Assembly (NCBI GenBank): GCA_900474095.1
Contig: UCOA01000089.1
Location: 1 to 33,397 of the forward strand
Source of the DNA: Hyphomicrobiales bacterium
GTDB taxonomy: Bacteria; Pseudomonadota; Alphaproteobacteria; Rhizobiales; Rhizobiaceae
Reading direction: 5' to 3'
Length of the DNA: 33,397 nucleotides
Shown here: in pieces, positions 24,909 through 31,554 of the stretch
Position numbering within the stretch: position 1 is the first letter of the stretch
Layout of the letters: each line of letters opens with the position of its first letter
Made by a program: the position numbers and the translations under genes
The notes under the pieces: model-generated
The model's input: only the letters and a program-made list of their open reading frames with translations
Databases searched by the model: none
Told to the model about the DNA's origin: nothing

Positions 24909-24957
24909 GATGCACGCTACCCATCCGCGTGCAACTCTGATCGGCAGAGGGCACCCG

Positions 24958-27900
24958 ATGAACGATATGCTGAAGACTACACCCGATTTTTCGATCGAGC
25001 AGGCAAAGCTTTTGCTGGCCGAGCACTATGGCCTCGACGGCACGCTGTCGCCGCTCGACAGCGAGCGAGACCAGAATTTCAAGGTTCTGACCAGGGGCGG
25101 CGAAACCTATATCCTGAAAGTCGTCAATGCCGCCGAGCCATTGGTGGAGAGCGAATTCCAGACGGCGCTTCTGGAGCATATCGGTGCGTACGCGCCGGAC
25201 CTTCCCGTTCCGCATATCCGCCAGACCGTTTCAGGTGCCAGCCTCGCCGAAGCGACGAACGGGCATGGCGTTCGCCATCTGCTACGGCTCGTCGTCTGGG
25301 TGCCGGGCGTACCGCTTGCCCAGACGCGACGCAACGACGCGGCCCTGGAATCGCTTGGGGGTCTGCTCGGCCGTTTCGATGCTTCGCTGAAAGGCTTCAT
25401 GCACCCCGGCGCCTTGCGTGAACTCGACTGGAATCTTCGCAATGCCGGCCGATCCGCCGAAAGGCTCCACCATATTGCCGATGCGCACGACCGCGTGCTG
25501 CTTGAACGGTTTCTTGCCCGCTTCGAAACCAGGGTCGTGCCGATGCTTCCGAAGCTGCGCTCGGCGGTCATCCATAACGACGCCAATGACTGGAACGTGC
25601 TCGTCGACGGCGCCGATCACGATCGCATCGCCGGCGTCATCGATTTCGGTGATGCACTTTATGGGCCGGTGATTGCCGAGATCGCGATTGCCGCCGCCTA
25701 TGCCGGTCTCGATCATGCAGATCCGATCGGTGCTGCCGCTTTGATCGCGCGCGGTTTTCACGCGGAGTATCCGCTGCTGGAAGAAGAAATAGGTCTCCTC
25801 TTTGATCTGATCGCCATGCGGCTGGTGACCTCGGTGACGATCTCGGCCTCCCGCCGCGCCCATACCGACGGGAACCCCTATCTCGCCATCAGCGAGAAAC
25901 CGGCCTGGACCCTGCTACGCAAGCTTGACGCCATGAACCCGCGCTTTGCCACGGCGATCCTTCGCCAAGCCTGCGGTTTCGAGGCCGTGCCGGGCGCGCG
26001 GACTGTAGCACGGTGGATCGCCGAGAACCGCAAGACGTTGCACCCTTTGCTCGATAGGCCGGCGGCCACCTATCCGGCCGATCTCGTGCCCTATGGTGAT
26101 CCCGCGCACCCGATGACGGTGAAATCCGCCAGCGAGCGGCCGCACGAGGCGCAGGCGACCTGGGAAGACCACTGCCGCGAACGCGGCGTCGACCTCGGCA
26201 TCGGTCCCTGGGGCGAGGCGCGCACGGTCTATTCCGGCGAGATGTTCGTGTCCAGGCTGATCGACAACACGCGCCGCACCCGCCATCTCGGTCTCGATCT
26301 CTTCATGGCTGCCGGCACCAGGGTCTACACGCCAGTGGCCGCCACCGTCGTCAGCGTCGAGATCGAAAAGGAGCCACTCGGATACGGCTGCCTGATCGCG
26401 CTTCGTCACGAGCCGGCGGGCGGCCCGGCCTTTATCACGCTGTGGGGGCACCTTTCCCACGCAGCGCTCGATCGGTTGAAACCCGGTGACCGCCTGGAAG
26501 CTGGAGCATTGGTGGGCGAGATGGGCGCTCCAGACGAAAACGGCGGCTGGGCGCCGCACCTGCACCTGCAGATTTCCACCGATACCAGCCTTTCCGCGAC
26601 CGAAATTCTCGGCGTTGGCGAGGAGCGCTATCTCGATGTCTGGGCCGAACTGTTCCCGGATGCACGCACGTTCGCCGGTCTTGCGCCGGAGTTTTACGAG
26701 CAAAAAGGCCGGTCTCATCAAGAAATCGTCAAGCGCCGCAAGGAACTGCTGCTGCCGAACCTGTCGATCTCCTATGACAAGCCGATCAAGTTCGTCCGCG
26801 GCGAAGGCGTCTGGCTGATCGACGATCGCGGTCGGGCTTATCTCGACTGCTTCAACAATGTCTGCCACATCGGCCATGCACATCCGGCGGTGGTCGAGGC
26901 CATGGCGAAGCAGGCCGCGACGCTCAATACCAATACGCGCTATCTGCATGACAACATCGTTGCCTATGCCGAGCGGCTGACGGCGACTATGCCCAAGGAA
27001 TTATCGGTTGCCGGCTTCGTCAATAGCGGCTCGGAGGCTAACAGCCTGGCGTTGCGCCTGATGCGCGCCCATACCGGCCGCGAGAACGCGATCGTACTCG
27101 ACTGGGCCTATCACGGCACAACGCAGGAACTGATCGACATCAGCCCCTACAAGTTCCAACGCAAGGGCGGCAAGGGACAGAGGCCGCATATTCATGTCGC
27201 GCCGGTTCCCGACAGCTATCGTGCCGCGGCCGATTGGCCGGTCGAGGAACACGGCAAACGCTTTGCCGAGCATGTAGCCGAGCTGATCACCGCGATGCGG
27301 GCGAAGGGAGATGCGCCCTCCTTTTTCATTGCTGAATCCATTCCGAGCATCGCCGGCCAGGTGTTCCTGCCGGACGGATACCTTAGAGAAGTCTACCGCA
27401 TGGTACGCGAGGCAGGAGGCGTCTGCATCGCGGACGAGGTGCAGGTCGGGTTTGGCCGGGTCGGCAGCCATTGGTGGGCCTTCGAGACGCAAGGGGTCGT
27501 GCCCGACATCGTCACCATGGGCAAGCCGATCGGCGACGGACATCCGCTGGCAGCCGTCGTCACGACGCGGGACATCGCCGACAGTTTCGACAACGGCATG
27601 GAATATTTCAACACATTCGGCGGAAACCCGGTGTCCTGCGCCGTCGGGCTTGCCGTCCTCGATGTTATCGAGGGCGATGACCTGCGCCGCAACGCGCTTA
27701 AGGTGGGCAATTACCTGATAGCCGGTTTTCGGGCGATGCAGGACCGCTTCGAAGCGATCGGCGACGTACGTGGCATGGGGCTCTTTCTCGGTATCGAACT
27801 GGTAAAGGATCGAAAGACCAAGGCTCCCGCCACCGAATTCGCCAGGGCCGTCTCGAACGGTGCACGGCAGCGCGGCGTACTGATGGGAACCGAGGGGCCG

Positions 27901-28026
27901 CACGACAACGTCCTCAAGATGCGGCCGCCGATGATCTTCTCGCGGCGGGACGCAAACCATCTGCTGGCCGTTCTCGAAGAGACATTCGAGGCTTTAACCG
28001 CCAAGGGCTGGGCCAAAAGCATATGA
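24958..28026 (+). CDS. Trifunctional-looking fusion: aminoglycoside-phosphotransferase-like kinase, M23 domain, class III aminotransferase
   Basis: This 1022-residue protein joins three domains. Residues 1-340 are a kinase of the APH/choline-kinase fold (H206-N-D208 in [14 protein letters not shown], then [10 protein letters not shown]). Residues 410-575 form an M23/LytM-like domain with its metal motifs, H443-x3-D447 (RHLGLDLF) and H534-x-H536 (APHLHLQI). Residues 590-1020 are a PLP class III aminotransferase with [23 protein letters not shown] and PLP lysine K856 in [12 protein letters not shown]. There is no signal peptide. In animals the hydroxylysine kinase and phospholyase are separate proteins of the first and third domain types; here they may act in sequence on an amino alcohol or hydroxy amino acid. 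The ATG at 24958 with GAGGG upstream is preferred over 24910. Confidence 0.9.
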
Positions 28027-28116
28027 AAGTGAAACGAAAAATGGCGGGATATGCCGCCGGGCGGCAGACGCGCGCCTTGTGCGCCGACGAGATTGCTGCG
28101 CGAAGACGCAGAAACG

Positions 28117-28272
28117 AAAAAGCCTGCCGCGGGAGGAGGTGCGGCAGGCTTTCAAATAGAACCGAACAGCGACTGGGAGGAGGAGTGTCGCCATTCCGCG
28201 AGTGCCCTTTGGGAGGAGGAGTAAGGACACTCGCAATCGAAGCTTTGCGGGAGGAGGTGCATCGCTTCGATG
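28117..28272 (-). ncRNA. Cuckoo/alpha-r14-like sRNA with four CCUCCUCCC hairpin loops
   Basis: On the minus strand, four consecutive hairpins each expose CCTCCTCCC in the loop. Stems are ATCGAAGC/GCTTCGAT (28236-28243, 28264-28271), GCGAGTG/CACTCGC plus CCTT/AAGG (28198-28234), GCGAC/GTCGC (28169-28191) and a 12-bp stem AAAGCCTGCCGC/GCGGCAGGCTTT (28119-28130, 28141-28152). The last is followed by five T's and works as an intrinsic terminator. A TATAGT box at 28283-28278 would place the transcript start near 28271, right at the first hairpin. The loops are anti-Shine-Dalgarno sequences, the hallmark of alphaproteobacterial cuckoo (CcsR) and alpha-r14 RNAs. A 3'-UTR origin from the RND transcript is an alternative. 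Confidence 0.75.
28119..28152 (-). terminator. Intrinsic terminator of the sRNA array
   Basis: A perfect 12-bp stem with a 10-base loop is followed on the minus strand by TTTTTCG. On the plus strand only three T's follow (GGCTTTCAAA), so it is a weaker terminator for the upstream triple-domain gene, which ends at 28026. Confidence 0.75.
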
Positions 28273-28410
28273 ATTTGACTATACACGGATTCCGCTCAAA
28301 TAGTAGGCAGTATTTTGCAGAGCAGCCATGCGCTATGCGCGTAGCGGATGGCTTGACCGGCCGTAAACCGATTGAACCCCGCGGAAAACGAATAGCTGCT
28401 TTCCATGGAG

Positions 28411-31400
28411 TTATTCGGCCGCCAGTGACGCCGGATAGATCTCTTGCGGCTCCTGCTCTTCCTTCGCATCCATTGGCTCGGCGGTGAGTTTCTTCGGCTC
28501 CTTGCCGAAGAACAGGGCGTAACCTGCCGGCAGCACGAGGATCGTCAGCACGGTAGCGACGAGGATACCGCCCATCATGGCAAAGGCGAGCGGCCCCCAG
28601 AAGACGCCGCGGGAGATCGGGATCAGCGCCAGCACGGCCGTCATTGCCGTCAGCACGATCGGCCGGAAACGGCGCACGGCCGAGCCGATGATCGCTTCCG
28701 ACCGCTCCATGCCGGCAGCAATATCCTGGTCGATCTGATCGACGAGAATGATCGAGTTGCGCATGATGATGCCGAGCAGCGCAATGACACCGAGGATGGC
28801 GACGAAGCCGAAGGGCGCGCCGCTGATCAGAAGCGCTGCAGCCGCACCGATGATGCCGAGCGGGCCGGTCGCCAGGACCAGCATTGCCTTGCCGAAGTGC
28901 TGGAGCTGGATCATCAACAGCACGACGATGACGGCAAGCATGACGGGTGCCTTGTCGGCGATCGATTGCTGGCTTTCGGCCGAATCTTCGGCACCGCCCT
29001 GGATCTCGACCGTATAGCCCGGTGCCAGATTATCGCGCAGCGGCTTCAGGTCGGCATACATCTTCATCGCCACGTCGTTCGGCTGCACGCCGTCCGGCAA
29101 GGTGGCGCGCACGGTAATCGTCGGCAGGCGGTTGCGGCGCCATTCGATGCCCTGTTCGAGAACCGGGACAACCTTGGCGACCTGCGACAAGGGCACGAAA
29201 CCGCCGAAATCCGTCGGGATGTAGACCGAATCCACGGCCGACAGCAGGTGACGGCTCGTCTCCGGCTCACGGGCAACGATAGAAACGGTTTCCTCGCCGT
29301 CGCGGAAATCATCGAGCGGCGCGCCAGTCATCGACGCCTGCAGCATCTGGCGAATTCGTTGCGAGGTGACGCCGAGCGCGCGGGCGCGATCCTGATCGAT
29401 CACCAGCTTCATGGCAGGCACGGGCTCCAGCCAGTCGTCGTGGATGGCGCCGAGCTGCGGATTTTCGGCAAATTTTGCCTTCACTTCGTCGGCGATCTTG
29501 CGGACCTCGGCACGATCCTGACCCATCACGCGCATCTGGACAGGCCAGCCGGTCGGGGGGCCGAGGAACAGGCGATCGACCTTGCTGCGGATCGACGGGA
29601 AGTCGGCAGCAAGGATACCCCGCAGCTTGACGATCAGCCGCTCGCGGGCCGGTTCGTCATTGGCCATGACGAGAAGCTGGGCAAAGTTCGGATTGCGCAG
29701 CTGCTGGTCGAGCGGCAGGAAGAAGCGCGGCGCCCCCTCGCCGATATAGGTGGCGATGAACTTCTTGTCCTCGTCGTCCATCATCTTCGCTTCAAGCGCC
29801 TTGGCCTGCGCCTCCACTTGCTTGATGCTGGTGCCTTCCGGCAGCCACAGATCGACGAGGATTTCGGGCCTTGAGGACTGCGGGAAGAAGTTCTTCGGAA
29901 TGAACTGGAAGGCCCATAGGCTGGTGGCGAAGGTAACGAGCGTCAGCGCAAGCACGATGATACGGTGGCGCACGGCCCAGCCGACAGTGGCGCGCAGGCG
30001 GCGGTAGAAGTGCGTATCGAAAACGTCGTGGTGCTCCCCGGCATGATGGCGCTGCTTGAGGATCATGTGGCCGAGCCAAGGCGTGAAATAGACTGCCACG
30101 AACCAGGAGACGACCAGCGCGATCCCGACGACGTAGAACAGCGATCGAACATATTCGCCGGCGGTCGAGGCTGCAAAACCGACGGGGATGAAGCCGGCGG
30201 TAGTGATCAGCGTGCCGGTCAGCATCGGGAATGCCGTCGAGGTATAGGCGAAGCTCGCTGCGTCGACCTTGTGCAGCCCCTCCTCGAGTTTGCGTTCCAT
30301 CATCTCGACCACGATCATCGCGTCATCGACGAGCAGGCCGAGCGCGATGATGAGGGCGCCGAGCGAAATGCGCTGCAGGTCGATGCCGAGTTCATACATG
30401 ATCGCAAAGGTGGCGGCGAGCACGAGCGGGATGGCAATGGCGATTACCAGGCCGGAGCGCCAGCCGATCGACAGGAAGGAGACAACCAGGACGATGACCA
30501 GCGCTTCGCCGAGCGCTTTCATGAACTCGTTGACCGCCTCGGTCACCACTTCCGGCTGGTTGGCAATCTGATCGACCTTGACGCCGTAGGGCAGCGCGGA
30601 TTCGAAACGCTTGTAGGTATCCTCGACGGCGGCACCGACGTCGGTAACCTTGAAGCCCTTGGCCATCACGATGCCGAGCTGAACACTGTCCTCGCCATTG
30701 AAGCGGTATTTGCGCTGATAGGGATCTTCGAGCCCGGATGAGACGGTGGCGATATCGCCGAGACGGGTGACCTGATCGCCGGCCCTTAGCCGCAGTTCGC
30801 GAATATCCGATGGCTTGGTCACGCCGCCGTCCACGGCAATCCGGACGGACCGGGTTCCGGTATCGACGGAACCCGCCGGATCGACATTGTTCTGGCCCTT
30901 GATGGCATTCTGAACATCGGTCAGCGTCAGACCGCGCGTGGCGAGCAGCTTGGAGGAGATGTCGATATAGATCTTCTCCGGCTGGTCGCCGATGATGACG
31001 GCCTTCTCGACGCCGGGCGTCGTCAGGAGCATGTCACGCGCCTGGATGGCGAACGTCTTCAGCTCCGGATAGCTGTAGCCGTCACCGCTCAGCGAGTGCA
31101 ACGTGATGAAGGTATCGCCGAACTCATCGTTGAAATAGGGACCAAGCAGGCCTTGCGGCAGCTCGTTTTCGATATCCCCGACCTTTTTGCGGACCTGATA
31201 GAAGGCGTCGGCAACCTGCTCCGCGTTGGTGTCGCCCTCGACCTGCAGCGTGATGATGGCGCTGCCTGGGCGGGTGTATGAGCGGACGAAATCGAGATGC
31301 GGCGTTTCCTGCAGCTTGCGCTCGATCTTGTTGACGACCTGGTCTTCCATCTCCTCAATTGAGGCGCCCGGCCAGATCGCCTGCACGACCATGACGCGGA

Positions 31401-31554
31401 AGGTGAAATCCGGGTCCTCCTTCTGGCCCATGCGCAGCAGGCCCAAGGTGCCGGTGATGAGGATCAGGCCGAACAGGAAGCGCGCGATGCTCGGATGCTC
31501 GATCGCCCAGCGGGAGAGGTTGAAGGACTGCTTTTGATCGGTGGAAATGTTCAT
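28411..31554 (-). CDS. RND efflux transporter permease (AcrB-type)
   Basis: The 1047-residue inner-membrane pump has the RND duplication. It opens with NLSRWAIEHPSIARFLFGLILITGTLGLLRMGQKEDPDF. The paired proton-relay Asp residues occur in LGLLVDDAMIVVEMMERKLEEG. The second half has GIIALLGIIMRNSIILVDQID and FRPIVLTAMTAVLALIPI. Length fits the family. The start at 31554 (MNISTDQKQSFN) is chosen; a TTG at 31578 is less likely. The stop of the adaptor gene is 31 bp upstream, so tetR-adaptor-pump form one operon. A long plus-strand frame opposite it is a shadow. The exported compound is unknown; the closest families include multidrug and solvent pumps. Confidence 0.95.
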   Translation of the reverse strand: MNISTDQKQSFNLSRWAIEHPSIARFLFGLILITGTLGLLRMGQKEDPDFTFRVMVVQAIWPGASIEEMEDQVVNKIERKLQETPHLDFVRSYTRPGSAIITLQVEGDTNAEQVADAFYQVRKKVGDIENELPQGLLGPYFNDEFGDTFITLHSLSGDGYSYPELKTFAIQARDMLLTTPGVEKAVIIGDQPEKIYIDISSKLLATRGLTLTDVQNAIKGQNNVDPAGSVDTGTRSVRIAVDGGVTKPSDIRELRLRAGDQVTRLGDIATVSSGLEDPYQRKYRFNGEDSVQLGIVMAKGFKVTDVGAAVEDTYKRFESALPYGVKVDQIANQPEVVTEAVNEFMKALGEALVIVLVVSFLSIGWRSGLVIAIAIPLVLAATFAIMYELGIDLQRISLGALIIALGLLVDDAMIVVEMMERKLEEGLHKVDAASFAYTSTAFPMLTGTLITTAGFIPVGFAASTAGEYVRSLFYVVGIALVVSWFVAVYFTPWLGHMILKQRHHAGEHHDVFDTHFYRRLRATVGWAVRHRIIVLALTLVTFATSLWAFQFIPKNFFPQSSRPEILVDLWLPEGTSIKQVEAQAKALEAKMMDDEDKKFIATYIGEGAPRFFLPLDQQLRNPNFAQLLVMANDEPARERLIVKLRGILAADFPSIRSKVDRLFLGPPTGWPVQMRVMGQDRAEVRKIADEVKAKFAENPQLGAIHDDWLEPVPAMKLVIDQDRARALGVTSQRIRQMLQASMTGAPLDDFRDGEETVSIVAREPETSRHLLSAVDSVYIPTDFGGFVPLSQVAKVVPVLEQGIEWRRNRLPTITVRATLPDGVQPNDVAMKMYADLKPLRDNLAPGYTVEIQGGAEDSAESQQSIADKAPVMLAVIVVLLMIQLQHFGKAMLVLATGPLGIIGAAAALLISGAPFGFVAILGVIALLGIIMRNSIILVDQIDQDIAAGMERSEAIIGSAVRRFRPIVLTAMTAVLALIPISRGVFWGPLAFAMMGGILVATVLTILVLPAGYALFFGKEPKKLTAEPMDAKEEQEPQEIYPASLAAE

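Follow-up and report, generated by a model that had tools for sequence, protein, structure and literature searches.

We analysed a DNA stretch of 33,397 bases, referred to here as the window, and found on its minus strand a small RNA (sRNA) gene of about 159 nt at 28114..28272, of ar14/cuckoo type and, judged by sequence, orthologous to SmelA099 of S. meliloti. The gene contains four hairpins, each with the seed CCTCCTCCC: hairpin 1 (28236..28271; 8 + 3 pairs in a stem split by an internal loop; seed at 28257-28249), hairpin 2 (28197..28235; 13 pairs; seed at 28219-28211), hairpin 3 (28164..28196; 10 pairs; seed at 28183-28175) and hairpin 4 (about 28117..28153; 13 pairs; T run at 28121-28117; seed at 28139-28131). 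The 5' end (28272) and the 3' end (28114) are the SmelA099 ends mapped through our alignment A1. The original prediction had placed the array at 28117..28272; its 5' end held, and the 3' end lies closer to 28114 than to 28117. On the same strand, the ORF of an AcrB-type transporter (PF00873) occupies 31578-28411, with its stop 138 bases upstream of the sRNA. On the other side, the sRNA gene converges on a plus-strand ORF at 24910-28026, whose 1038 aa comprise fused APH-type phosphotransferase, M23 peptidase and class-III aminotransferase domains. The closest relatives of the transporter gene are found in Rhizobium herbae, Pararhizobium sp. and Rhizobiales isolates (91-94%), and Pararhizobium sp. 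A13 matches the sRNA region with 95.3% identity; from these similarities, we infer that the genome is Pararhizobium or near it.

The four CCTCCTCCC copies are the only ones in the window, and all lie on the minus strand. In shuffled windows, 0.33 copies were expected, and none of 100 contained four (largest number, 3). The minimum free energy of the array was -71.6 kcal/mol, whereas shuffled sequences averaged -40.8 (z -8.27; 0/200 shuffles as good). In this fold, each CCTCCTCCC is unpaired within the loop of its own hairpin, leaving CCUCCUCCC exposed. The loops are of two types, CACCTCCTCCCGC in hairpins 1 and 4 and CTCCTCCTCCCA in hairpins 2 and 3. Both the four motif-bearing hairpins and the two loop types had been read from the sequence in the original prediction, and both were borne out.

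We then compared the locus with known sRNA families. Rfam at gathering thresholds returned a single match in the window, ar14 (RF02344), at 28239-28115 with 105.1 bits (gathering score 58.8). This model has three hairpins and spans hairpins 2-4, so annotation by the model alone trims the gene by omitting its first hairpin. With its additional 5' hairpin, the locus departs from the three-hairpins-only definition of ar14, whereas the SmelA099 family is defined by what is present here, a row of four adjacent hairpins whose loops all contain CCUCCUCCC; we assign the locus to the SmelA099 type, a relative of ar14. Cuckoo RNAs are said, in a 2015 paper, to have two to four adjacent hairpins. Of the cuckoo/alpha-r14-like family first proposed, the ar14/cuckoo type was upheld by the Rfam check, but membership of CcsR1 itself (RF02791) was rejected, since the model scored 26.8 and 18.7 bits here, below its gathering score of 65.3. 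In Rhodobacter sphaeroides, CcsR1-4 (RF02791) carry the same CCUCCUCCC seed in their hairpin loops as the window sRNA, and CcsR RNAs are described as being cut from a transcript shared with ccaF1, the gene of the DUF1127 protein CcaF1 (PMC10253847). By eye, no DUF1127 gene was present among the ORFs of at least 60 aa at window positions 25000-31500, a size limit that shorter genes would escape. AbcR1/AbcR2 (ar15) resemble the window sRNA in having unpaired anti-Shine-Dalgarno motifs, with ABC-transporter targets reported in PMC7143759, but differ in their Rfam family, their two CU-rich motifs and their binding of Hfq; Rfam at gathering thresholds gave no ar15 match in the window. PmaR of Agrobacterium was rejected as unrelated, its paper describing an interacting sequence that is not an anti-Shine-Dalgarno region.

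SmelA099 (RFM-SmelA099; also smrA6 or SMa6570) is the closest known counterpart. By BLAST, the query matched S. meliloti 1021 pSymA at 1328171-1328403 on the minus strand, with 79.7% identity over 98% of the query. This match contains the whole SmelA099 gene, so the homology extends over its full length. According to PMC2873474 and PMC7143759, SmelA099 is a sequenced transcript of 160 nt from a single-copy gene (pSymA 1328175-1328334, minus strand), and the latter also lists it as expressed in the nodule zones ZII, IZ and ZIII. The two genes share four adjacent CCUCCUCCC hairpins, nearly the same length (160 nt and a mapped 159) and the conserved upstream block described below; they differ in their neighbouring genes and in the stem of hairpin 2, whose sequence is largely changed. 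A survey of 2011 already includes the SmelA099 family with four CCUCCUCCC hairpins, as well as L5, a member from Agrobacterium whose RNA was confirmed both by Northern blot and by sequencing (PMC3927594), and the four-loop form is thus already published. The suggestion that the array is an unusually long member of its family does not hold, as the locus matches the gene of a four-hairpin family that was described in 2011, and longer arrays are present in related genomes. On sequence similarity, the locus is the SmelA099 orthologue of a Pararhizobium-like genome, and that survey had already made known both the class of four-hairpin RNAs and the way in which they are proposed to act.

To describe its distribution, we searched related genomes. 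The query DNA was matched in all 26 genomes of the genus, our own included, and 19 of them carry a close orthologue (L091-L109, 88-100% identity). These 19 orthologues were found by DNA similarity, and every one keeps all four exact 9-mers. Among the other 11 fetched matches (L110-L120), nine have four exact loops, L113 has an altered third loop and L116 has three loops. The genome that carries the window contains five ar14 matches above the cut-off among the ten listed, and its contig C76 holds a second four-hairpin-like copy with two exact 9-mers and two altered loops. Across the family, the strict hairpin-1 pattern occurs in at least 31/394 genomes and at least 9/109 genera, and three-loop arrays in at least 144/199 genomes and at least 80/109 genera; these counts are lower bounds because matching was exact, with no mismatch allowed.

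We next examined whether stems and loops are conserved differently. From 41 distinct four-motif sequences, 38 were aligned (A1). L144, a three-hairpin unit followed by a stray motif, and L150, which is part of a longer array, were left out on inspection by eye. Also left out was L141, a genuine four-loop locus that belongs to another lineage and lacks the CGAAG first stem. Since the 41 sequences were collected by the exact motif, their loop invariance is by construction, and the fair count is that of the 19 orthologues. In the 38 sequences, 94.9% of paired cells could pair, compared with 86.2% after shuffling and 35.4-49.8 for slid versions; 25 of 47 pairs had two-sided changes (13.3 on average after shuffling), and covariation scored 0.312 (shuffled 0.156). 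None of 500 shuffles reached the pairing, two-sided-change or covariation value, a comparison that kinship can inflate and for which the structure was taken from one of the sequences. Two-sided changes were concentrated in hairpins 2 (12/13 pairs) and 3 (7/10), with 4/11 in hairpin 1 and 2/13 in hairpin 4, and RNAalifold recovered the same four hairpins from A1. In alignment A2, made of 16 chosen rows (the window, 14 relatives and S. meliloti), identity to the window, with the window itself included, was 99.1% for the 9-mers and 95.4, 81.3, 85.9 and 99.5% for stems 1 to 4, stems 1 and 4 showing little variation. Each alignment contains one misaligned row: in A1 it is L123, at loop 3, and in A2 it is L151, at loop 2. 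A contiguous-stem score served poorly for hairpin 1 because of the internal loop (mean 3.8, minimum 0; 4.1% of shuffled flanks reached or exceeded that mean), and covariation counts were used instead.

These results indicate that the stems vary with compensation while the loops are kept exactly, and they support the selection on the loops that had been predicted. Loops varying in place of stems had been set beforehand as the refuting outcome; in the relatives it was the stems that changed. The same observations bear on whether this copy is a silent duplicate, conserved but little used, as has been reported for most NfeR1-type copies of S. meliloti under tested conditions. Just one of six such copies was reliably detected by Northern blot under the conditions tested, as reviewed in PMC7143759, so the window copy may be silent. 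We nevertheless consider this reading unlikely: compensatory stem changes together with exact loops amount to continued selection, and SmelA099 itself has been sequenced (PMC2873474) and is listed as nodule-expressed (PMC7143759).

Upstream of the gene, TATAGT at 28278..28283 (minus strand) is the presumed -10 box and reads TATAGT or TATATT in aligned relatives. The mapped 5' end, 28272, lies six bases 3' of this box, in agreement with the expectation that TATAGT stands where the transcript should begin. Further upstream, at 28303..28342 (minus strand; about -70 to -31), is a conserved block that presumably comprises the -35 and an activator region. Mean identity per ten bases was 0.84-0.96 at 28340-28301, compared with 0.44-0.70 at 28400-28351 (16 sequences, S. 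meliloti included). A sigma-70 scan listed no minus-strand promoter at the locus, and the table of one review gives no promoter motif for SmelA099 (PMC7143759). The -35 element is non-consensus, in which the window sRNA differs from NfeR1 of S. meliloti, whose promoter is given as CTTAGAC-N17-CTATAT; upstream of it lie an NtrC site and, at -72 to -57, one for LsrB (PMC10746234). The LsrB motif of NfeR1-like promoters is TGCA-N6-GCAT at about -72 to -57 (PMC10746234). By eye, the upstream block contains a partial match, TGCA-N6-CCAT on the other strand, whose position overlaps that of the NfeR1 site; because the match is partial, LsrB control of the window sRNA is only a guess. At the 3' end, hairpin 4 and its T run have the form of a terminator, as had been expected of the last hairpin, and probably serve as one. 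Hairpin 4 was missing from the output of a terminator scan whose rule admits loops of 3-8; the loop of this hairpin has 10 unpaired bases.

NfeR1 provides the closest functional model. It is a 123-nt RNA with three hairpins and three identical, redundant seeds, and in reporter assays it silences the mRNAs of ntrB and of two ABC transporters; this silencing is seed-dependent, and NfeR1 is described as Hfq-independent (PMC10746234). NfeR1 (Smr14C2), a member of ar14 (RF02344), and the window sRNA have the same seed and a terminator-like last hairpin, and hairpins 2-4 of the latter fit the ar14 model; the window sRNA differs by its additional first hairpin. By analogy, the locus is very probably a free-standing gene for a trans-acting sRNA, the SmelA099 orthologue, that would act as a multi-target repressor with redundant anti-Shine-Dalgarno seeds. 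An RNA of about 159 nt would be made from its own promoter, with the TATAGT box and the upstream block, and would end at hairpin 4. The four hairpins would present the same CCUCCUCCC seed unpaired, and any single loop could exclude ribosomes by base-pairing to a Shine-Dalgarno region rich in GGAGGAGG. If NfeR1 is a guide, the four interchangeable loops would block translation of mRNAs with GGAGGAGG-type leaders. The sRNA thus probably represses its targets by occluding the ribosome-binding sites of their mRNAs; for the window copy, we infer its transcription, this silencing, its targets and its regulation.

To identify candidate targets, we searched its own genome for GGAGGAGG-N4-11-ATG. There were 51 listed matches (one site counted three times), compared with 10 for the reversed pattern, a control that leaves the general purine richness of ribosome sites uncorrected. 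In 50 of the 51, we found 26 distinct ORFs of at least 60 aa starting at such an ATG, six of them with the full GGGAGGAGG. Seven of the 26 were picked by eye and their products compared with Pfam: four are ABC-transporter parts (two ABC ATPases and two periplasmic binding proteins), one is a TPP enzyme, one is an alcohol dehydrogenase and one had no match. In this hand-picked sample, the candidate leaders fit the transport bias predicted for NfeR1. The leader of the presumed ntrB, taken by position as the ORF after dusB, reads AGAAGAAAAGGACGCGGCATG and has no GGAGGAGG ahead of the start, so one of the established targets of NfeR1 cannot simply be transferred to the window sRNA.

The loops might instead titrate ribosomes, acting mainly as decoys that resemble the 16S 3' tail or as global leader binders that lower translation broadly. 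All four carry the core CCUCC, exact in 19/19 orthologues, and several copies exist per genome, as the five ar14 matches above the cut-off in our own genome illustrate; even so, we regard titration as quite improbable, given that the seed extends past the 16S core and that NfeR1 silences particular mRNAs seed-dependently (PMC10746234). One typed pattern for the 16S tail was not found in this draft genome.

Finally, we considered the surroundings of the gene. The transporter adjoins the sRNA in 14 of the 19 orthologues, and no RND C-terminus was found in the 1.5-kb flank of the other five. Conversely, the sRNA was present at 7 of 80 transporter homologue loci, with four motifs at all seven. Around the S. 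meliloti copy, the ORF list gives other ORFs and no transporter ORF ahead. The sRNA would therefore hardly be a 3'-UTR product cut from the transporter mRNA, which its place directly downstream on the same strand and the transporter beside 14/19 orthologues would favour, since the transporter is missing from the flank of five orthologues, the sRNA accompanies so few transporter loci and is lacking beside the transporters of L013 and L019 (91-92% identical), and the conserved upstream block travels with it, S. meliloti included. We rejected the transporter mRNA tail as sole origin on the five orthologues with no transporter in the flank, on the ORF list ahead of SmelA099, which shows none, and on the travelling block. 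The linkage being partial and the S. meliloti surroundings different, the sRNA is best seen as an independent unit. In L013 (Rhizobium herbae DSM 26427) and L019 (Pararhizobium polonicum), no sRNA match was found within the adjoining 3 kb, and the sRNA gene may have been lost or moved there.

A small-protein reading of the locus was also rejected. The 80-aa minus-strand ORF at 28236-27994 begins with a TTG, and its frame is not kept: among the 19 orthologues, this TTG is directly followed by a stop in six (TAA 4, TGA 1, TAG 1), is absent in nine, and is followed by a sense codon in four, the window copy included.

In hairpin 1, which lies outside the Rfam model, the stem sequence is more strongly conserved than in hairpins 2 and 3. 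Ten four-loop A1 loci from other genera (L123, L129, L156-L161, L163 and L165) were found by loop pattern, not by stem 1, and nine of them have CGAAG/CTTCG flanking the loop; L123 is without it, as is L141, outside A1 and judged by eye. This constancy is the part least explained by the known account. Tentatively, the stem may be more constant than pairing requires, with hairpin 1 serving as a site where a protein docks or an RNase processes the RNA. Three-hairpin ar14 RNAs would have no such site, and the SmelA099 class would then be functionally distinct; we hold this possible but doubtful. A young age of the four-hairpin class would equally explain the constancy. Hairpin 4 is equally constant, perhaps because a terminator is required there.

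Several other arrays were also observed. In genome G119, four-loop loci occur at no fewer than four separate places and differ in their stems (L156-L159), the highest number among the genomes examined. L154 (G200:C1:877900-879900, minus strand) contains seven tandem three-loop ar14 modules with 21 exact CCTCCTCCC loops and a period of about 150 bases; all seven are Rfam matches above the gathering score, and the array lies directly 3' of a DUF1127 ORF (PF06568). It looks like an enlarged CcaF1-CcsR locus. Short DUF1127 genes, named CIN1, often lie beside CcsR-like sRNAs, and as such pairings are described in PMC10253847, the layout of L154 is known; arrays as long as L154 were not met in the literature examined. 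L153 (G216:C54:17300-18700, minus strand), likewise 3' of a DUF1127 ORF, has eleven consecutive exact CCTCCTCCC loops at 34-51-base steps, each closable by 10-14 pairs, with two more ahead, and five ar14 matches above the gathering score. L155 (G180:C1:3404900-3406600) has six tandem ar14 modules by Rfam, 3' of a DUF1127 ORF; one module has two altered loops and was therefore overlooked by the exact-motif count.

Because a class of four-hairpin RNAs, and the way in which it is proposed to act, had already appeared in print in 2011, the discovery is a modest one. Our results indicate that the four-loop gene has been stably maintained and has a conserved upstream region of its own. Genomes that hold three- and four-loop versions with one seed show where to ask what the extra loops and the fixed first stem add.
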